A stretch of DNA of 64,000 nucleotides from Rhodobacteraceae bacterium Alg231-30 (GTDB lineage Bacteria; Pseudomonadota; Alphaproteobacteria; Rhodobacterales; Rhodobacteraceae), in the NCBI GenBank assembly GCA_900143615.1, contig FREU01000001.1, forward strand, positions 132,941 through 196,940, in the 5' to 3' direction. A program made the position numbers and the translations under genes. Position 1 is the first letter of the stretch, and each line of letters begins with the position of its first letter. Positions 22,710-36,864 of this stretch are shown piece by piece. The notes under the pieces are model-generated. The model worked only from the letters and a program-made list of their open reading frames with translations. It did no database searches and was not told the origin of the DNA.

Positions 22710-24149
22710 ATGAATAGACTAAGATCATTAGGTGTAGCAGCGCTGACGTCGATGGCGTTAGCAGGAGGAGCGTTTGCGCAGCAAATTCCGGCGCCTGCTG
22801 AGCCCTCTTCGCCGGAAGACATTCAAAATGCATTGCTTGGCGGGGTGCCAAACGGGCGCTGGAAAGAAGGCCTGATGTTTGAGGGGATTTCTCCTCAGCC
22901 TTGGCTTCAAAGTGCTGCCAACTGGTTCCCCGGCACTGAAGAAGTGCAACCCGAAGAAATGCGGATCACCTTTATGGGAACCGCGCCCCTTCTACGGCCT
23001 GGTCAGATGAATACGTCGGTGTTTGTAGAGCTTGGCAACGGAGACAACTTCATCTTTGACATCGGTGAAGGCTCGGTTGCCAACTATCAGGCAGCCCGCA
23101 TTGCACTCAATGAATTGACCGATGTGTTCATTACGCACCTTCATGTCGATCACTTCGGCGCGCTGCCCTACCTCTGGATGTTCCGAACTTGGAATGGCGG
23201 CTGGCATGAACCGCTGCGCATTCACGGACCGTCTGGGCGGACGCCGGAATACGGTACGGCCTCAATGGTTGAAGGCATGAAGATGATGACCGCTTGGCAC
23301 CGGGATGCGTTTAGCGTTTTCCCCACTGGCACGGGCTGGGACATCGAAGTGAACGAATTCGATTTTGCCGACAACGGCGGTGTTATTTATGACAAGAACG
23401 GCGTAACAGTCCGCCACTGGCAGCGAAGCCATGCAAAAGACGGTGCAACCGCCTATCGACTGGATTGGAACGACCTGTGCTTTGTCTGGACAGGCGATGG
23501 GCGGCCCAACCTGCTTGATGTCGAATACGCAGAGGGTTGTGATGTTTACATCACAGAACAGCAGCAGGAAGTGGTTGAGATCAATTCGGGCGTCCAAGGC
23601 GTTCCACCATTCCTCGCACGCTACACCATCGACACCCATCACACGCCTACTTATGCGGCAGGGTATATTGCGAACCTGATCCAACCCCGCCTCTTTATGA
23701 CCACGCATATGAGCTACGACAAATATCTGCTCGAAGAGTCTGTGGCAGAAATTCGGGAACACTGGAAAGGTCCGTTCCATTTCGGCGCCCCGGATGGAAT
23801 TGTCGTGAATGTAACCAAGGACCAAATCTGGGTCCGCGAAGGCATCCTGCCAGAGTTCCCCAACGTCCGCGCGCCTCAGTTTGACTTTACCAACGAGCAA
23901 CTGGTTGTTCCTTTGCCACCCCATGCACGGGAGGACATTCAGAATGCCGAAGTGCGGGCAACAGAACTGGACCCAGAGCTTTACTACCCGGAAAGTTATC
24001 ACCCAGAACTCCTGCCATTCTGGCCGGTTGAAAGTGATCTTGTCGTGCCGATGGATATGATGCCTGAAGCTCTCAAAGACAGCATGGGCGCGGCGTGGCG
24101 TCATCGTGAGAAGAACCGCGCAATCCTGAAAGAAATGGGCAAGTTCTAA
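22710..24149 (+). CDS. Exported metallo-beta-lactamase-fold hydrolase
   Basis: 479 residues with a signal peptide (MNRLRSLGVAALTSMALAGGAFA). The metal motif THLHVDHFG (HxHxDH, about residues 139-147) starts the MBL core, with further ligand candidates in WQRSHAKDG, FVWTGDGRPN, DTHHTPTYAAG and TTHMSYD. The 110-residue N-terminal extension and the C-terminal 120 residues lie outside the basic fold. It resembles MBL proteins annotated as GntH-like (guanitoxin-type) but that identity is tentative. Start preceded by AGGAGG. It ends in a strong terminator. Confidence 0.8.
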   Translation: MNRLRSLGVAALTSMALAGGAFAQQIPAPAEPSSPEDIQNALLGGVPNGRWKEGLMFEGISPQPWLQSAANWFPGTEEVQPEEMRITFMGTAPLLRPGQMNTSVFVELGNGDNFIFDIGEGSVANYQAARIALNELTDVFITHLHVDHFGALPYLWMFRTWNGGWHEPLRIHGPSGRTPEYGTASMVEGMKMMTAWHRDAFSVFPTGTGWDIEVNEFDFADNGGVIYDKNGVTVRHWQRSHAKDGATAYRLDWNDLCFVWTGDGRPNLLDVEYAEGCDVYITEQQQEVVEINSGVQGVPPFLARYTIDTHHTPTYAAGYIANLIQPRLFMTTHMSYDKYLLEESVAEIREHWKGPFHFGAPDGIVVNVTKDQIWVREGILPEFPNVRAPQFDFTNEQLVVPLPPHAREDIQNAEVRATELDPELYYPESYHPELLPFWPVESDLVVPMDMMPEALKDSMGAAWRHREKNRAILKEMGKF

Positions 24150-26398: not shown

Positions 26399-27295
26399 TT
26401 ATGTGAATTCCTCTCGCAGCGTTTTGGCAAAATCAGATGCGAGCTTGGGCATATCACCAGTTGCACGATAGTGGATGGCAATAGACCAATCATCCATATC
26501 CAAATGGATTGGAAGTTGTACAACAGCGGCGCGATCGATTGCTTTTTGCAACGGCAGCTTCGGAAAAATTCCAATATGGTCGCCAACTTCCATCATCTCG
26601 ATTGCGCTGTGAATCGTGTCGACCGAAATGTTGAAGTTCACGGAGTTCAGACCCATCGAAGCTAATATACTGGTGACTTTTTTGCGCATCGTCGTGTCAG
26701 GCGGAGTGCTTAACCAACGCGCTTTTCCCAGATCCTGTTTTGTGATCTCACTTTTTTGGACCAAAGGGTGATCGGCGCCGCAAAAGACCCCAAGAGAGCT
26801 AGTCATTAAAGGTTCTGTTTGGATATCTTTGGTGGCAAAAGTTGGCCCAACTGGTCCAATTACCAGGTCGAGTTCTCCCATCGCCAGACGTTCGGTCAGC
26901 GGATACATCCCACCTACTTCCATTGTCGCCGTTACACTCGGGCGGTGTTCCAAATACTGGGACAAAACCTTAGGTAAGAGTGAGGCTGGATATGGGCTTG
27001 CACCAATGATCAATGTTCCGCTTTGCCCTTCTCGCCAAGACTCAATCTCGACGCTGAACCGCTTTAACGTGTCATTTATGGACTTGGCATAAGGGAACGC
27101 ATGCTCGCCAAGATCAGTAAGGCGCGCGCCTTGACGGCCCCGTACCAACAACTGGGCGCCGACTTGCAGTTCCAGTTCTTTCATGTTCCGCGATAGCGCT
27201 GGCTGCGTCAAACCTAGTGCATCAGCCGCATCGGTCAGCGAACCACGCTCGACAACCTCAACCAGTTGCAGCATGAGCTTCGGATTTACATACAT
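26399..27295 (-). CDS. LysR-family transcriptional regulator
   Basis: 298 residues: N-terminal winged helix (GSLTDAADALGLTQPALSRN, about residues 18-37) and a periplasmic-binding-like effector domain from about residue 92 (LIIGASPYPASLLPKVLSQY). It is divergent from the thiol-transporter/propeller/cytochrome operon that starts at 27465, with 169 bp between them. By the usual LysR arrangement it would activate that operon in response to a small effector, perhaps the substrate of the cytochrome enzyme. Confidence 0.88.
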   Translation of the reverse strand: MYVNPKLMLQLVEVVERGSLTDAADALGLTQPALSRNMKELELQVGAQLLVRGRQGARLTDLGEHAFPYAKSINDTLKRFSVEIESWREGQSGTLIIGASPYPASLLPKVLSQYLEHRPSVTATMEVGGMYPLTERLAMGELDLVIGPVGPTFATKDIQTEPLMTSSLGVFCGADHPLVQKSEITKQDLGKARWLSTPPDTTMRKKVTSILASMGLNSVNFNISVDTIHSAIEMMEVGDHIGIFPKLPLQKAIDRAAVVQLPIHLDMDDWSIAIHYRATGDMPKLASDFAKTLREEFT

Positions 27296-27464
27296 AAAAT
27301 TTCCTGATGGATATCTGATTTAAACTGATTTGACGTTATGGATAGAAATTTGTCAAGCTGACCTCAACTCGATTCCACACATCACCTGAAAACTCAGGGC
27401 TGACCGGTGCACATCATGTGTCCGGTGGGTGGAAGCGCTTGGTTTGAAGTCAGGAAACACGAAA

Positions 27465-28901
27465 ATGCCCCGTCAACCCGCACATTTAGAGCTGAATGCG
27501 AGATTGCCGAATTCCCGCAAGATTCTCGCCACGCAGTTCTCGGCAATGAAACTGCTTTTAGCTGTTCTGGGTTTGACTGCGCTGGCGTTTTCCTGGCTTG
27601 CGCTGCCCTATGTCGTGAATGGCGCAGACATGCTGACCCGTACAGGGGACTCTGTTCAGGAAGAGCGTCGCGAGCAAGCGGCGACCTTGTCGGAGTTCTT
27701 GACCCGGCAGTGGTATTATCCCGGTGGGATCGAAGTCAAAGCGCTCTATGCGCATGAAGCGTATTTTGAGCGCGCGGATCGCGGACGTATGACCGAGCAA
27801 TACCGTCCGGACGAAAACTACGTATTCTTTCTCACCGAAGATGTGCACACAGGGCTGCTGCCCTCAGGACTTCCCAAGGTAAGCCTGCGCGTGGGAGGGA
27901 CAACTATTGAGCCGACAGTCGTTGAAGGGCCTTCGGACGTTAGCCATCACCGGATGACCATCGTGAGCTTCCCCAAGGTGGACGCCAATGGCGTGCCCTA
28001 CTTGGGAGATGGCTCTTTTGATGAAATGCGTCTGATGCTCAGCCACACTTGGGACCGTTCGCTGACACTTGGCGACAAGCTACAGCCGGTCATGACCACA
28101 TTCGGCTGGGAGCTGCCCCAAGACATTCCCCAGGAACTTCTGGATGCACCAGGTTTTGGTGGGGCCGTCATCGCATCACTGTCCATTGGCCTGTTGGCGG
28201 CTGTTTTGACCCCCTGTCTGTTGCAGCTTTCCGTAGTGTTTATGGCGACGATGAGCGCTTCTGGTGCTGAAGCTATCAGTTCCCAAGGGAAAGTCGACCG
28301 CGTCGCTCAAAAGCGCATTTTAGTGGCGGCCTCGGCCTTTGTGCTTGGCTATATCATCCTGTTCACACTAGCCGGCGCCCTGATTGGCGGGCTTGGCAAG
28401 CAGGCGCAAATCGCCTTTTCCATGTACTCACGCTCCGTGGCGGTTGGCTCGGGCATTTTGGTGATCTTGTTCGGGCTGTGGCTTGGCATTCGCGCCAACG
28501 CCCCGATGCTGTGCAAGTTGCCCGGTGCAGGGGTCATGCAGCGCATGAAAGGCAGCAGCACATTGGGCAATGTGATGATCGCCATTGTTTACAACCTTGG
28601 CTGCATGAGCTGCTTTGGCGGGGCCATCATCGCAACTCTTTTCATATACGTCGGCGCGCTTGGATCGGCGTTCACTGGCGCGGTCACCATGGGGGCCTTT
28701 GCCCTTGGACTTGGCATCCCCTTCATGCTGGCCGCGCTCTTTTTTAGCCGTGTTGAACCCTTGATCCTAGCTGTGTCCAAATATCGCCGCGGCATCGGGC
28801 TGGTCAGTAGTCTCGTGATCGTCGGCTTTGGTGTGCTGCTGGTGACCGACAATTTCCATACGCTTAGCGATGCGATCTATCCTTTTTTGGGGCTGAGCTG
28901 A
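27465..28901 (+). CDS. DsbD/CcdA-like membrane thiol-disulfide transporter with periplasmic N-terminal domain
   Basis: 478 residues from ATG 27465 (AGGAAA upstream). A signal anchor at about residues 31-52 leads to a periplasmic domain of about 180 residues that is not recognised. The membrane part (about 235-478, eight or so spans) is of the DsbD-beta/CcdA type. Its likely redox pair is Cys251 (LTPCLLQL) with Cys380 or Cys383 (LGCMSCFGG); Cys350 is a further one. No C-terminal thioredoxin domain is present. Such proteins pass electrons across the membrane to reduce periplasmic cysteines, needed for heme attachment or copper insertion. It overlaps the next start by one base (TGATG), so the operon is tightly coupled. 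Confidence 0.8.
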   Translation: MPRQPAHLELNARLPNSRKILATQFSAMKLLLAVLGLTALAFSWLALPYVVNGADMLTRTGDSVQEERREQAATLSEFLTRQWYYPGGIEVKALYAHEAYFERADRGRMTEQYRPDENYVFFLTEDVHTGLLPSGLPKVSLRVGGTTIEPTVVEGPSDVSHHRMTIVSFPKVDANGVPYLGDGSFDEMRLMLSHTWDRSLTLGDKLQPVMTTFGWELPQDIPQELLDAPGFGGAVIASLSIGLLAAVLTPCLLQLSVVFMATMSASGAEAISSQGKVDRVAQKRILVAASAFVLGYIILFTLAGALIGGLGKQAQIAFSMYSRSVAVGSGILVILFGLWLGIRANAPMLCKLPGAGVMQRMKGSSTLGNVMIAIVYNLGCMSCFGGAIIATLFIYVGALGSAFTGAVTMGAFALGLGIPFMLAALFFSRVEPLILAVSKYRRGIGLVSSLVIVGFGVLLVTDNFHTLSDAIYPFLGLS

Positions 28902-30049
28902 TGCAAAAAATAACCAACCTCACGCGTCGCAACTTTCTCTCAGGTGTCACTGCAACGAGCTTTCTACGCACAGGGTCGCTCTGGGCCTCTGAACAAACGC
29001 CACTGGTCTATGGCGACCGCTTCCTATTTGTCCCTGGAGATAGCGGCCAAATCGCAGCGGTGGATATCCTGAATGGGCAGCTAGAGACAATTCTGCATGT
29101 TCCACACGACATCGGCGCAGTCGTAGCCTCAGACCTTTACAATGCTTTGTTTGTAACCGACCCCATCGGGCAGCAGGTCAGCGTAATCGATTTAGCCGCA
29201 CGGGAGATTGCGATCACCAACCCCTTGGGTATGCGCCCTGATCTGGCCGTGGCGAACCCCTTGGACAATGCGATTGCCTATGGTGGCCGTGACGGTGTGA
29301 TTTCGGTCTGGGGGCATCGGCACAACGCTGAAATCGCGCGGGCCGAAGGCCTTGGCGCAATCCAAGGTATGACTTTTGGGCGACACGGGCGGCACCTTTA
29401 CGCAGTACAATCTGGCGTTCGTGACATTTCCGTTCTGGACCTAGCCGAGAACAAACTGAACGACCCCATTGTGCTTGAGGGGGCGTCAAATGTTCCGCTT
29501 GAGCCTATGTCACGCAGCCTTGATGGCGGCACAGGTCTAATTTCCCTACCGGATTTGAACCAACTAGCGATCCTCGATCTGACCCAAAACACAGTCTACG
29601 ACAGCTTGAACATAGCGGCCGATCCGCGCCGCCCCTATGCCACCGGAGACGGCGAACATTTCCTGGTCCCACATGGCGAAGGGCACGCTGTAACGGTGAT
29701 TGCCCGGCGAACTCTGGACGTCGTTGCAGTCGTTGAACTTGATTACCCCTTAAAATCCATTGTGACAGGCTGGCTTGATATGTTTGCCTTTGCTGTCCCT
29801 GAAACCGGCACGGACATGGCGGTGATCGATCTACGAGATTATCGCGAGATTGCCCGAGTATCGCTGAGCAACTCAGCTGGTGCTGGGCTTGTGAGTGCGG
29901 ACACACGGGTCGTGGCGGTGACACACCCTGACAGAGGACAAGTCGCGCTGATCGACACGGCGGGACAACGGGTGGCCGTGACCGTGGATACCGCACTGCG
30001 GGACCTGCGGTCCCCGACAATAGCTCTAAGCGGAGACATTTGTCACTGA
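28901..30049 (+). CDS. Tat-exported beta-propeller protein
   Basis: 382 residues starting with a twin-arginine signal (LTRRNFLSGVTATSFLRTGS, residues 7-26), so it is probably folded, perhaps with a cofactor, before export. The mature part is made of repeated strands of the YVTN/cytochrome-d1-like kind (FLFVPGDSGQIAAVDILNGQ, GRHLYAVQSGVRDISVLDLA, NQLAILDLTQNTVYDSLNIA). No heme motif is present. Located between the thiol transporter and the cytochrome/propeller gene. It may be an assembly factor or a second subunit of the cytochrome enzyme. Function not known. Confidence 0.75.
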   Translation: MQKITNLTRRNFLSGVTATSFLRTGSLWASEQTPLVYGDRFLFVPGDSGQIAAVDILNGQLETILHVPHDIGAVVASDLYNALFVTDPIGQQVSVIDLAAREIAITNPLGMRPDLAVANPLDNAIAYGGRDGVISVWGHRHNAEIARAEGLGAIQGMTFGRHGRHLYAVQSGVRDISVLDLAENKLNDPIVLEGASNVPLEPMSRSLDGGTGLISLPDLNQLAILDLTQNTVYDSLNIAADPRRPYATGDGEHFLVPHGEGHAVTVIARRTLDVVAVVELDYPLKSIVTGWLDMFAFAVPETGTDMAVIDLRDYREIARVSLSNSAGAGLVSADTRVVAVTHPDRGQVALIDTAGQRVAVTVDTALRDLRSPTIALSGDICH

Positions 30050-30190
30050 AACCAAGCCAGAACAACGCTGATCGGACATTCTGATCGGCCTCGAATTCCC
30101 GCTCATTGCGTCGGCTTTGAAGTGGGAAGGTAACGCGCGAAAAAACCGCGCATATCGCCGGCCCAAGGGCCGAAAAATGGAGAAGATCAA

Positions 30191-31960
30191 ATGAAACTCA
30201 GAACGGTTGCTACGATCACAACCCTGCTTGCAGGATCGATCGCGGCCCATGCCCAAGATGCTGAATTGGCACTCGCCGAAGGCGAAGCGCGACTTGGCTA
30301 TGAGGAAGCAGTGGAACTTGGAAAGGAGCTTTATGATACCACAGCCGCTTGCGTGGCTTGTCATGGTGAAAACGCAACCGGTGGCGAAGGCCCCGCGATG
30401 AACATAGACCGGATCGTTCCTGGCATGGTCCTCTATAACCTGCACGCAAACGCCAAGATGGTTGGCATCGACGAGTTTATGGCACCGGTTACGCCGAACA
30501 AGCTTTATGCGCTTTCAGTGTATTTGGGTACCGAAGCAGGGCTGGAAACCTCCGAGGAAGACCTCGACAGCTTGTTTGCTGGCGCACAAAGCGCCATCGA
30601 GTCTGCTCAGACGGTTTCAACTTACTACATGTCGCGGATGTATAACTTCTCGCGCACACCAAAAGAAATGTTCACCGACGTTCAGGCCAACTGGGAGCGT
30701 AAGGCGGAAACCGGTTCGCTTAAGCGCACCTATGATGCTGAAGTGGTTTGGGACTTTGAACCCGGTGAACCCAAGTTCACGCCAGAGCCCGGCAAGACAT
30801 ATTTTTATGAAGCCGCAGGTGTCGCAAACTTTGTAGCGGGTCCCGGCCTTGCTAACGAGCAAATGGCAGAATCCTCGCAGATGGTTGTGGGGGACGCAGA
30901 AACCTTTGAAATCATAGATAACGGTTTCCTGCCTCGCGAGATGCGCGGCGATGTTCACGCCACATTTGCGAGCCCAGATGGCAAGTACATCTATATGAAC
31001 GGTGCCAAGACCGGCGAAAAAGCCGATCATATGTCGCCTGCCGCACTGGTGAAAATCGACGCTCTGACACTTGAGCCTGTACGCACTATCGACATCCGTG
31101 GCCGTATCCACCACGGTCAGCTGTTCCAAGAGAAATACTTCCTGATCGACATGTTCATGTCGGACATGGAAGGTCTCGATGTCTTTCTCTACGACCCAGA
31201 AACCGACAACATCGTGGGCGGTGTGAAAAACGAAGATCTGGGTGGTGACGCCTATACCGCATGGACTGACAACGAGCACATCTATGTCATGATGGCACCC
31301 GCAGGTGAGCACGCAGCAGGCTTCCGCCTGGGTATCGAGTTTGCGCGTGGTGACTTCGTCAACCAGCCGACTTTCTGGATTTCCAAGATTGATCCTGAAA
31401 CATGGGAAGTTGTGGACGAGTTCCCGTTTCCAGGTATCCGTGGTGACTGGATCACCTTTGATGCGGCTGGTGACTACATGTATGTAACCGCCGGTGCATC
31501 AGCACTGCTGTCGAAAATGGACACCAAAACTGGTGAAGTGATCTGGGCAAACGTAACTGGTCCGGGCCCTTACGGTTCGACATTGAACGCAGACGAGTCC
31601 GAAATCTGGGTGGCTGATAAAGGCGAGATGACCGGTTTCTATGGTCGCACAATCACTGTCTTTGACACTGAAACCGGCTCGCAGAAAGCGACACTGTTCT
31701 CAGCCTATATGGTTGACCACGTCCTTCTTTCGCCAAACGGCAAAGAAATCTGGGCAACCTCGAACGGCGAAGGCAAAATCCTCATCTACTCCACTGAGAC
31801 TTATGAACAGATTGCCGAAATTCCGATGCCGTTCTCGGGTGACCCTCATGGTCTCGTTTGGGTTCACTATGATGAAAACGGCGAAAGCCGCGTCGTCCGT
31901 GACCAGGGCAACTTCCATGGTGGCATTAACCCAGCTTTGGGTGAAACACTGAACTACTAA
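30191..31960 (+). CDS. Cytochrome c fused to a beta-propeller; possible periplasmic metalloenzyme
   Basis: 589 residues. Signal peptide to about residue 21 (HAQ). One heme c site CVACH at residues 54-58 lies in a domain of about 110 residues whose methionine ligand could be in PAMNID. After a linker a beta-propeller occupies about 220-589. It carries conspicuous histidines in loops: His256 (GDVHATF), His280, His307 and 308 (RIHHGQ), His510 (VDHVLL), His553 (DPHGL), His559 (WVHYD) and His576 (NFHGG). That spacing recalls copper propellers such as thiocyanate dehydrogenase, and cd1-type enzymes are also propellers with a c domain. Identity is uncertain; an exported oxidoreductase is well supported. 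GGAGAAG precedes the start; a terminator follows. Confidence 0.72.
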   Translation: MKLRTVATITTLLAGSIAAHAQDAELALAEGEARLGYEEAVELGKELYDTTAACVACHGENATGGEGPAMNIDRIVPGMVLYNLHANAKMVGIDEFMAPVTPNKLYALSVYLGTEAGLETSEEDLDSLFAGAQSAIESAQTVSTYYMSRMYNFSRTPKEMFTDVQANWERKAETGSLKRTYDAEVVWDFEPGEPKFTPEPGKTYFYEAAGVANFVAGPGLANEQMAESSQMVVGDAETFEIIDNGFLPREMRGDVHATFASPDGKYIYMNGAKTGEKADHMSPAALVKIDALTLEPVRTIDIRGRIHHGQLFQEKYFLIDMFMSDMEGLDVFLYDPETDNIVGGVKNEDLGGDAYTAWTDNEHIYVMMAPAGEHAAGFRLGIEFARGDFVNQPTFWISKIDPETWEVVDEFPFPGIRGDWITFDAAGDYMYVTAGASALLSKMDTKTGEVIWANVTGPGPYGSTLNADESEIWVADKGEMTGFYGRTITVFDTETGSQKATLFSAYMVDHVLLSPNGKEIWATSNGEGKILIYSTETYEQIAEIPMPFSGDPHGLVWVHYDENGESRVVRDQGNFHGGINPALGETLNY

Positions 31961-31971
31961 ATACATCAACG

Positions 31972-31997
31972 TGCGAGGCGATATCGCCTCGCATTTT
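31972..31997 (+). terminator. Terminator of the redox operon
   Basis: A perfect 22-bp palindrome (TGCGAGGCGAT and its complement, 31972-31993) followed by TTTT, 12 bp after the cytochrome stop. It ends the three-gene operon. Confidence 0.85.
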
Positions 31998-32129: not shown

Positions 32130-33062
32130 TCAGAAGCAATTTGCAGGCTTACACGATTCAGCCCTTGGTAAAACGCTCGCTTTTTGAAAACCATTTCGAA
32201 CGTTCTCATCAGCTGGGCAATGGGCGCTCCACTTAGCATGAATGTCGCGTCTGGGCTGCGAGTTGCCATCCGATGGTAGAAATGGGATGCGTTTTCGCGG
32301 CACCCAGCTGCCGCACCGCCGAAAGTCGGCTTTGAGCCCATTCTGACTGATGCGGCTCATGGCACGAACGGCAGCAATGTGCGGAAAGCGGGCTTTGCTA
32401 AGATTGGCGAACGGCCCTAAGTTGCCGTTGGTACACCTTTTGGCAAGCTGCAGCAAAGTGCCTCTTATTGCCAAGTGAACAGATGCAGCATTTCGCAATC
32501 TTCGGAAGTGCAACATCGCCCGCTCTCTTCGTCGAAATGGAAGATGAGAGTTCTCTGCGCGATTGTTCAACCAGCTGCCAGTTGCTTGCCTGTTCCCATT
32601 GCCAATTTCCCTCATCGCAGCACCGTAAGCGCGATGTTTGTCGGTTACCAGAGTACCTGGCCGACCGTGGCGCCGCATTGATTTCTTGAGAAATTTCAAA
32701 GCTGCCTTCCTATCTCGCGTCTTTGTCACATAGCTTTCAAGGACTTCACCCTCATGATCAACGACCCGACAAAGGTAGTATCGCTTGCCGTTGATCTTCA
32801 CGAACATCTCGTCCAGGTGCCATTTCCAGCTCGAGTGAAAACGCATCGATTGAGATCGTCTCTTGCGGATTTCCGATGCGAATTTGGGACCAAACCGCTG
32901 CCACCAAAACCGAATAGATTCATAGCTCACGTCGATGCCACGTTCGTGCAGCAGATCTTCGACATTCCTGAGCGACAGAGGAAACCGAATGTACATCATC
33001 ACAGCCAAGCGGATGATCTCACGGTTGGTTTTGAAGTAGCTAAATGGGGATGGTTTTGGCAT
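32130..33062 (-). mobile_element. IS6-family transposase, C terminus abnormal
   Basis: 310 residues read out, but IS6 transposases are about 235. The N-terminal part is typical: the helix-turn-helix around LSLRNVEDLLHERGIDVSYE and the DDE core with Asp in WHLDEMFVKI, Asp in TLVTDKHRAYGA and Glu in NNRAENSHLPFRRRER. After about residue 195 the sequence leaves the family pattern and appears to run into unrelated DNA, so the original C terminus is lost or frameshifted. I did not find terminal inverted repeats or a target duplication. Probably inactive. Confidence 0.75.
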
Positions 33063-34516: not shown

Positions 34517-36144
34517 CTACTCAATTACCTCAAAGCTCTCTACGACAGCCTCACGCTTCTTTGCCAACTCCTTGGCCAGCCTGAACCTCTCCGTCCCTAG
34601 CGTAAGTCGGTATTGGAAAAAATCCAACATCAGATCCTTTTCATCATCCGCCCATGCGCCACTTGTATGTAACTCCAACATTACAGCCCTGCGGTTTTCA
34701 TCAGTCATCTTGCCGTAGTGTGCTTCGGTTGTTGCCACCTTTTCGTGTCCAAGATTCAGAGACCAAGCCTTTTCCTGTTCCTTGCTACGGCACAGGCGGT
34801 CGCCTAGCACCGCCAGACAATGGCGTGCCGAGTGGGGACAGTAGGCCTTGCCAATAGTTTTTGAGGCCTCGGTAAAGGCAGCTGCGATCGCCCCTTCGCT
34901 CTTCATCGGCTGGATCGGCGCGTGAGCTAATTCTTGAGCATGCAGGTCACGATGATCCGGAAACAGTGGATCTCCTTCAGAAAAGCCCAAGTTGCGCAAT
35001 TCCGCCACCCAATCTATGAGAATCTCGTGCATCTCTTCAGTTCGAGGGAACCAATTTGCACGGTAGCTTTTACCGTTTTTGCCCGCATCTCTGACGCATC
35101 CTGAACCGCCTCCTTGGCCTCGATATTCAAATGCTTCAACCGCAACGTAGTCAGTGCTCCAGCCCGAAACCCTGTAATGAAGGCACAGGCCACCATCGCA
35201 CGTTGGCGTCGCTCAACACGGACGCCTGAAGGCATCAGAAAAACCATTTCTACCGCTTCTTCAATGGCTGGATACGCACGTTTAAGCTTCACCAGTTGCC
35301 TTGCCTCCATCGCCTTAGGCAACTCCAAATAGTCCGCGATATTGGCGCGCAGTTTGCGAAAGCCGTCTTGTTGCCGCAACCAGTTTAGAAACTTGCGCAG
35401 CTGCGACGCTCGTTTGCGGATCGTCGCCTTGCTAAGGCCACCCTCGTCTGGCGAGGCCTTGCCTAGCGCAATTAGGGAATCGCGACAGGAAGCCACGTCC
35501 GCCTGTGTGAGGCGCTCAAATGGCTTACCACCCAGCGCTTCTTCAAAGACTCGAATGTTCGTCAGATAGGCCTCTACCGTCTTTTCACTGTGACGCCCTG
35601 CATAGATTTGCCACGCATAAATGATCCGATCATTGAGGCCAAAAAACTCTCCACTGGGCGTTTCCGGTGCGGTTTCCACCTCGATTTTCCCAATACCAGC
35701 CAGATTTTCCCCCCTTTCTTCGTCTGGCGTGCCCAGCCCGGTATTGGTATCGAGACAATTTTTGATCTTGTCTCTTTCTGTCGCACCTAGGAACTTTACC
35801 ACTGGCGCACCGCAATCTGGGCAGGTGGCTTCGGCACGGCACAGTGCTTTTTGCGAGGGCACGATGCGCACTGTTTCCACCTCGGGAAAGACCACAGCAC
35901 CACAGCCAAGACATTTGAACTCACCAAGTTTCAATTCTCCCTTCACTCGCAGCTTGCGCGCATCGTGAAACCGTTTGAGCTCCGCCCCTCTATACAGGCG
36001 CGGCCCCTTGCCCCCAGTGCTCCTCAATCCGGAGCGTTCCCAGTTTGACAGGGTGTTACGGCAAATCCCATAAAGCGACAGGACGTCGTCTACAGAATAC
36101 ACACGGTGGATTTTGGGTTTTACGTTTTTATAGGAGCGGCTCAT
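34517..36144 (-). pseudogene. Tyrosine recombinase with N-terminal HTH and zinc ribbon, frameshifted
   Basis: The first part (start at 36144) has a MerR/AlpA-like HTH (YSVDDVLSLYGICRNTLSNW), a zinc ribbon (CLGCGAVV...CPDCGAPV, two CxxC pairs about 40 residues apart), a SAM-like arm domain and the first catalytic Arg (FITGFRAGALTTLRL). It then runs into a stop at 35014. The remainder is open in another frame (HEILIDWVAELRNLGF, HSARHCL, LGHEKVATTEAHY with the nucleophile Tyr). One base is missing in or near the five-T run at 35076-35080. Restoring it gives 542 residues. The start overlaps the upstream HTH gene by ATGA. Confidence 0.78.
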
Positions 36145-36774: not shown

Positions 36775-36864
36775 TGGCGGAGGAACAGGGATTCGAACCC
36801 TGGGAGGGCGTTAACCCTCGTCGGTTTTCAAGACCGGTGCATTCGACCACTCTGCCACTCCTCC
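36775..36864 (-). tRNA. tRNA-Ser (anticodon UGA)
   Basis: 90 nt including an encoded CCA. Acceptor stem GGAGGAG with TTCCTCC, D-arm with GGTCGAATGC, anticodon loop CTTGAAA giving UGA (reads UCA and UCG codons), a long variable arm characteristic of tRNA-Ser, and T-loop GGTTCGAATCC. The 3' end faces the accessory region, as expected of an integration target. The tRNA appears intact. Confidence 0.95.

Follow-up and report, generated by a model that had tools for sequence, protein, structure and literature searches.

Within a 64,000-nucleotide stretch of the Rhodobacteraceae bacterium Alg231-30 genome (contig FREU01000001.1, positions 132,941 to 196,940; hereafter the window), three genes, here called A, B and C, lie beside a divergent LysR-type regulator gene. 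Gene C (30191..31960, plus strand) encodes a 589-residue fusion of a cytochrome c domain and a seven-bladed β-propeller, and we propose that its product is probably a copper oxidoreductase, periplasmic and wired to heme c, for which the products of A and B, together with SCO1 where present, would act as a shared copper-assembly cassette. The C family looks like a previously undescribed form of copper-propeller enzyme; among the titles and abstract openings covered in the open-access literature, no paper was recognised as describing it.

Conserved histidines of the gene C propeller

A protein search found 408 homologues of C, of which 120 were listed and 57 of those aligned (alignment A1). The heme c site CVACH occupies residues 54-58 (30350..30364, plus strand, as for all features of A, B and C below), and C54, C57 and H58 are invariant in 120/120 listed homologues, as is M90, the likely axial heme ligand. 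The predicted structure (pLDDT 85.8, pTM 0.86) shows a seven-bladed propeller spanning residues 199-582 (30785..31936). Conservation and the model together point to five residues: H256 on the inner strand of blade II (30956..30958), H307 and H308 on that of blade III (31109..31114), H510 on that of blade VII (31718..31720) and H553 on that of blade I, which is closed by the C-terminal strand (31847..31849). All five are invariant in 120/120 listed homologues and, by strand assignment in the predicted model, lie on the inner strands of four adjacent blades. The broad feature of copper β-propellers, tunnel histidines contributed by the inner strands of a seven-bladed propeller, was accordingly recognised in C from strand positions in the model.

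The sequence-only reading had placed the CVACH motif and seven histidines correctly and had taken all seven as a pattern suggesting a metal site. Five of them hold up, both in conservation and, as far as strand assignment tells, in position; H559 and H576 fail on conservation, being His in 89 and 88 of the 120 listed homologues, respectively. In A1 the heme ligand H58 and the five propeller histidines are kept in 57/57 sequences, H576 in 53 and H559 in 38, and the remaining five histidines of C in at most 4 of the 57. Because H559 and H576 are not invariant, both were discarded and the candidate metal ligands narrow from seven to five. The metal site itself, most likely copper, is supported by the five invariant inner-strand histidines of the model. 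C scores below the cut-off of every NCBIfam model.

The same residues persist in a second set of 79 proteins, made up of the window's C, six paralogues from the same genome and 72 proteins from loci of metagenome-assembled genomes (MAGs); loci L077-L086 were excluded from this tally and from the neighbour-gene count. The five histidines are present wherever the sequence is covered (77, 77, 77, 79 and 79 rows), W420 is found in 78/78 and Tyr or Phe at position 461 in 79/79. Twenty rows have no CxxCH near the start; ten were checked, and among the twenty are fragments, proteins truncated at contig ends, and the proteins of L028 and L030, in which CxxCH is present behind an over-long N-terminus.

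More distant relatives were sought with an Acidobacteria MAG protein that matches C at 32%, giving 522 sequences, of which 120 were listed and 30 of these aligned (alignment A4). A C-terminal cupredoxin replaces heme c in 26/30 by precomputed domains (the exceptions being P0221, P0225, P0226 and P0229) and in 5/6 that were domain-scanned, and the five propeller histidines are kept in 30/30. When 11 heme-type and 22 distant sequences were aligned, the five histidines fell in identical columns. Since the redox domain is exchangeable while the five histidines are constant, the conserved core of the family, as read from these alignments, is the histidine propeller and not the redox domain. At least seven C homologues of 488-507 residues have no CxxCH at all (L018, L019, L020, L023, L025, L063 and L068) and keep the five histidines.

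Genes A and B as a candidate assembly cassette

Gene A (27465..28901; Pfam DsbD_TM E 6.4e-10) encodes a membrane protein in which the DsbD_TM domain scores 39.1 bits against a cut-off of 27.1, and it resembles the DsbD/CcdA carriers in this domain and in its conserved membrane cysteines. It differs from them in having no thioredoxin domain, in its own N-terminal periplasmic domain with invariant H140, H173 and H174, and in its set of four invariant membrane cysteines, C263, C362, C392 and C395; all seven residues are invariant in 15/15 aligned sequences (numbered from 27429). The full DsbD model NF001419 reaches 27.3 bits against a cut-off of 330 and no thioredoxin match was found in A, which agrees with the earlier description of a DsbD/CcdA-like protein devoid of that domain. 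The open reading frame runs 27429-28901; the ATG at 27465 is the better start, with AGGAAACACGAAA ahead of it.

A survey of 295 genomes of the family, at thresholds of E up to 1e-40 for A and 1e-80 for C, found A and C in the identical three genomes, two of them from one genus, and conserved co-occurrence of the three genes is in this respect supported. A sample of 398 genomes of the phylum returned both genes in two, the same two already counted, and so brought no new independent evidence. A further survey covered 29 MAGs picked for having C, with one locus each, which is not an independent test of linkage; here A was found in 25 (22 with one match, three with two, one of these a fragment) against 1 to 13 C matches each, fragments included, a copy ratio that fits a shared helper role for A. 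In Gammaproteobacteria a SCO1–DsbD–propeller (SCO1-A-B) cassette is found, whose SCO1 gene matches PF02630 (E 3e-35, one example) and has a CxxxCP motif with a distal His in 7/7 aligned sequences. The maturation role that had been suggested for A gains from its exact co-occurrence with C, from its SCO1 neighbour and from its usual presence as one copy beside several C paralogues. Several observations pull the other way: G012, one of the three genomes with both genes, has A and C on different contigs, and its C match, in a frame of 468 residues, starts no earlier than profile position 139; four of the 29 C-bearing MAGs show no A; and the clusters of the present genome lack SCO1, which sits elsewhere in the genome.

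Gene B (28901..30049) encodes a β-propeller of the cd1/NirF fold type with a twin-arginine translocation (Tat) signal whose motif, by direct reading, is TRRNFL. In fold searches B comes closest, across almost its full length, to NirS, NirF and NirN, all d1-heme propellers, and it has the d1-type propeller fold. A d1-like cofactor had been entertained for the 589-residue protein C, in which the order of cytochrome c and propeller does resemble cytochrome cd1 nitrite reductase; this candidate was rejected, as Cytochrom_D1 scores 16.6 bits on C against a cut-off of 25.5, the operon holds no heme d1 synthesis gene, and the cd1/NirF-like fold belongs to the B product instead. C also differs from cytochrome cd1, NirF and NirN in its copper-type histidines and seven blades. 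The B protein, in comparison with this group, is without a cytochrome domain and without any invariant His besides its last residue. That residue is part of a C-terminal Cys381-His382 pair (codons 30041..30046), which is present in 12/12 sequences of alignment A3, in 12/13 database homologues and in 17/17 complete B genes adjoining A; this last count comes from 20 of the 28 A matches in the MAGs, and several of the genomes concerned had also contributed sequences to the profiles. We know of no parallel for this tail.

It is conceivable that, beside a copper propeller enzyme C, B serves as another subunit of cd1/NirF type with a catalytic or cofactor-binding function, as its near full-length fold matches and the invariance of R205, D208, R244 and Y246 would allow. 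We regard this as rather unlikely: the SCO1-A-B cassette can stand without C adjoining and one cassette occurs alongside many C paralogues, the sole invariant His of B is its last residue, and the missing d1 synthesis gene counts here as well. B is more likely an assembly factor than a partner enzyme.

In the copper oxidoreductase that we propose, the five histidines from four adjacent blades are predicted to hold as many as three coppers in a CuZ-like cluster lacking CuZ1. The fused heme c would exchange electrons with this propeller site, and the flow would most likely run outward, into the respiratory chain, as a small substrate, differing between paralogues, is oxidised. A would carry reducing equivalents over the membrane and keep the cysteines of SCO1 and of the B Cys-His tail reduced, and the mobile tail of B would pass Cu(I) into the tunnel of C, such that A and B, plus SCO1 in Gammaproteobacteria, would form a shared copper-assembly cassette. 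Copper itself, the copper count, the direction of electron flow and each copper-delivery step are what we infer in this scheme; the order of the genes, the conserved residues, their strand positions in the model, the co-occurrence, the link to SCO1 and the Cys-His tail are observed. A bolder version, which we put forward only tentatively, is an undescribed class of respiratory copper enzymes in which a CuZ-derived three-copper core, naturally without CuZ1 and wired to heme c or a cupredoxin, is served by a dedicated cassette of SCO1, DsbD-type carrier and Cys-His-tail propeller, with about a dozen paralogues per genome providing marine and host-associated bacteria with a general periplasmic oxidation toolkit, much as pyrroloquinoline quinone (PQQ) dehydrogenases do.

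Comparison with nitrous oxide reductase and other copper enzymes

The CuZ site of M. nauticus NosZ is described as having seven histidines drawn from all blades except IV, two of them from blade II, and in P. stutzeri NosZ the H382A variant loses CuZ1 and retains an inactive [3Cu:2S] site (PMC11573801). By its order along the chain, H382 of P. stutzeri NosZ is the blade VI histidine. C shares with NosZ and with the clade III lactonase-type NosZ (L-NosZ, NF052460) a seven-bladed propeller with histidines on blades I, II, III and VII and none on blade IV, and it is like L-NosZ in having one on II and His-His on III. The two L-NosZ sequences above the curated cut-off among 398 sampled Pseudomonadota genomes (L117:1351-3111 and L118:1387-3165) have this arrangement of blades II and III, with blades assigned by motif. 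With the register taken from the structural alignment, C has five tunnel histidines rather than the seven of the CuZ ligand set; given that register, its blades V and VI are devoid of His and have Trp420 and Tyr461 (Trp and Tyr/Phe in the family) at those places. In NosZ the blade V histidine, too, is a ligand of CuZ1. C further differs from NosZ in its N-terminal heme c and in a chain that ends with the propeller, whereas NosZ has a C-terminal CuA cupredoxin, and in its other accessory genes and in scores far under the family cut-offs. Copper chaperones are near both, NosL and SCO being those described for nos clusters.

The blade register between C and NosZ is, on the model, probable. Structural alignment (VIA) pairs residues 199-567 of the C model with NosZ 62-495, which by hand-counted numbering begins shortly ahead of the first N-terminal strand and stops shortly past the blade I His. 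The unshifted register is preferred because these end points fit the NosZ numbering and because only that rotation brings both the His-His blade and the His-free blade IV into line. It is no more than probable because of two results that tell against our assignment: in hhalign the cupredoxin relatives align with L-NosZ over the full length (E 2.7e-15) one blade out of step, and the heme-type family gives no alignment with the two L-NosZ sequences (probability 0.1). The NCBIfam L-NosZ model matches C weakly (44/57 members, best 2e-7), and it is unspecific, also matching B (22/30, best 5e-6); the match was discarded as proof of kinship because B meets the same model.

Thiocyanate dehydrogenase (TcDH) is a periplasmic seven-bladed propeller with three coppers in a tunnel and a cytochrome c partner (PMC9456337), and its active-site histidines are given as 135, 136, 206, 381, 437, 482 and 528 in the Figure 4 legend of PMC6504805. 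C and TcDH are both periplasmic seven-bladed propellers that use cytochrome c. TcDH has no heme domain, and its seven histidines, as published and compared without residue-level alignment, stand against five in C. The methanethiol oxidase MtoX (SBP56), a copper enzyme with SCO1/SenC adjoining, is reported to use His89, 90, 140 and 412, including a His-His pair (PMC5739008). C likewise has a conserved His-His pair, and the SCO1/SenC gene adjoining MtoX has its counterpart in the SCO1 of the gammaproteobacterial cassette; MtoX differs in its MauG partner, proposed tryptophan tryptophylquinone (TTQ), four histidines and absence of a heme c fusion. Among the Pfam matches to C (E up to 1), none is to SBP56, which we take to be the family name of MtoX.

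Three further explanations of C have to be weighed. That the five histidines bind another metal or are structural, and that C is a sensor or binding protein whose propeller has no redox catalysis, draws on the metal being inferred and on propellers being common binding scaffolds; we consider it distinctly unlikely in view of five histidines that stay invariant while the redox domain swaps between heme c and cupredoxin, and of SCO1 within the cassette. Very unlikely is a TcDH relative that oxidises thiocyanate or another inorganic sulfur anion. The C model does match TcDH in Foldseek, in keeping with the shared propeller and cytochrome c use noted above; set against this are the count of five histidines rather than seven, a TcDH gene cluster described as containing copCD and tatA (PMC5328954) rather than the A/B cassette, and sequence searches of the PDB, run with C at a threshold of E 0.01 and with profile A1 at one of E 1, in which neither TcDH nor NosZ is among the matches listed. 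TcDH lies outside the 50 VIA rows listed, from which no conclusion is drawn. That C represents an additional nitrous oxide reductase clade, which the L-NosZ-like histidines on blades I, II, III and VII, the NosZ fold match and the full-length alignment of the cupredoxin relatives with L-NosZ would favour, is highly improbable given that C is without the blade V/VI histidines and the CuA domain, scores 19.3 bits against the L-NosZ cut-off of 700 and shares its genome with a canonical NosZ above its own cut-off, and that the NosZ variant without CuZ1 is reported inactive (PMC11573801).

The substrates N2O, thiocyanate and nitrite are not supported for C, each conflicting with a tested feature or lacking support; thiocyanate and nitrite had both been suggested from the sequence alone. 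Returning to the copper oxidoreductase, CuZ-type clusters are to our knowledge found in very few enzymes, and a large family keeping five of the seven CuZ ligands would show how such clusters evolve and what role each copper has. A site like that of the inactive CuZ1-less NosZ variant seems to have been kept by evolution across the large C family. The A/B/SCO1 cassette, with its Cys-His tail, offers simple, testable candidates for bringing copper into a propeller tunnel, and the expansion of C paralogues in some marine bacteria points to unassigned oxidation reactions and may mark an overlooked family of oxidation enzymes.

Locus layout, paralogues and neighbouring genes

The three coupled genes and divergent LysR regulator described by the sequence-only reading are present. 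The regulator lies on the minus strand (26399..27295; Pfam LysR_substrate E 1.1e-30, HTH_1 E 4.4e-17), A and B overlap by 1 base, the ATG of B overlapping the stop of A (TGATG), and 141 bases separate B from C. Behind C, direct reading shows a perfect palindrome of 20 bases (31973..31992) followed by ATTTT, terminator-like in appearance; a promoter and terminator pattern scan, whose output was overall at chance level, did not contain it. In the protein domain scan of the window the unit is flanked by mobile-element genes on both sides, namely a phage integrase (24511-25581) on one side and a DDE_Tnp_IS240 transposase (32130-33062) and a protein with an integrase SAM-like domain (35014-36144) on the other. 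A tRNA-Ser lies at 36775-36864.

This genome (G000) carries seven full-length C, five A and five B genes in five clusters. The six extra C paralogues are found in four clusters on contigs C5, C6, C9 and C10 (L087-L090); L088 has three C genes in tandem, and L090 has a divergent A gene, with B placed after C. In Shimia isoporae, BXY66_0300 is a homologue of B and BXY66_0301 one of C. LysR genes adjoin three of the five clusters (the window, L088 and L089), and genes for a flavin-containing monooxygenase (FMO), enolase-type proteins and molybdenum hydroxylases are near clusters of this genome. The neighbour genes of C do not converge on a substrate. That C oxidises rather than reduces its substrate is favoured because of the heme exit for electrons, the LysR genes, the paralogue expansion and the catabolic neighbours. 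At seven MAG loci (L002, L003, L006, L008, L009, L011 and L069; annotation checked for one), E1 alpha, E1 beta and E2-like genes of pyruvate/2-oxoacid dehydrogenase type stand directly upstream of C, possibly a hint to the substrate of that subgroup.

DUF6152 proteins are encoded at most four genes from C in 20 cases, for example L017:5470-6537 and L045:9611-10024 (two domain-scanned); they begin with His-His after the signal peptide, contain a conserved-looking NPH and might be copper carriers. The term DUF6152 retrieved no paper from the open-access literature. About eight proteins of G000, of about 485-612 residues, on contigs C7, C8, C9 and distal C10, give two separate matches in reversed order, one to part of the propeller profile and one to its cytochrome part, and are probably quinoprotein dehydrogenases. 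A metallo-β-lactamase-fold protein is encoded at window positions 22710-24146, upstream of the phage integrase, and several MAG loci likewise have genes of this fold near C (neighbour cluster c7; one example domain-scanned).

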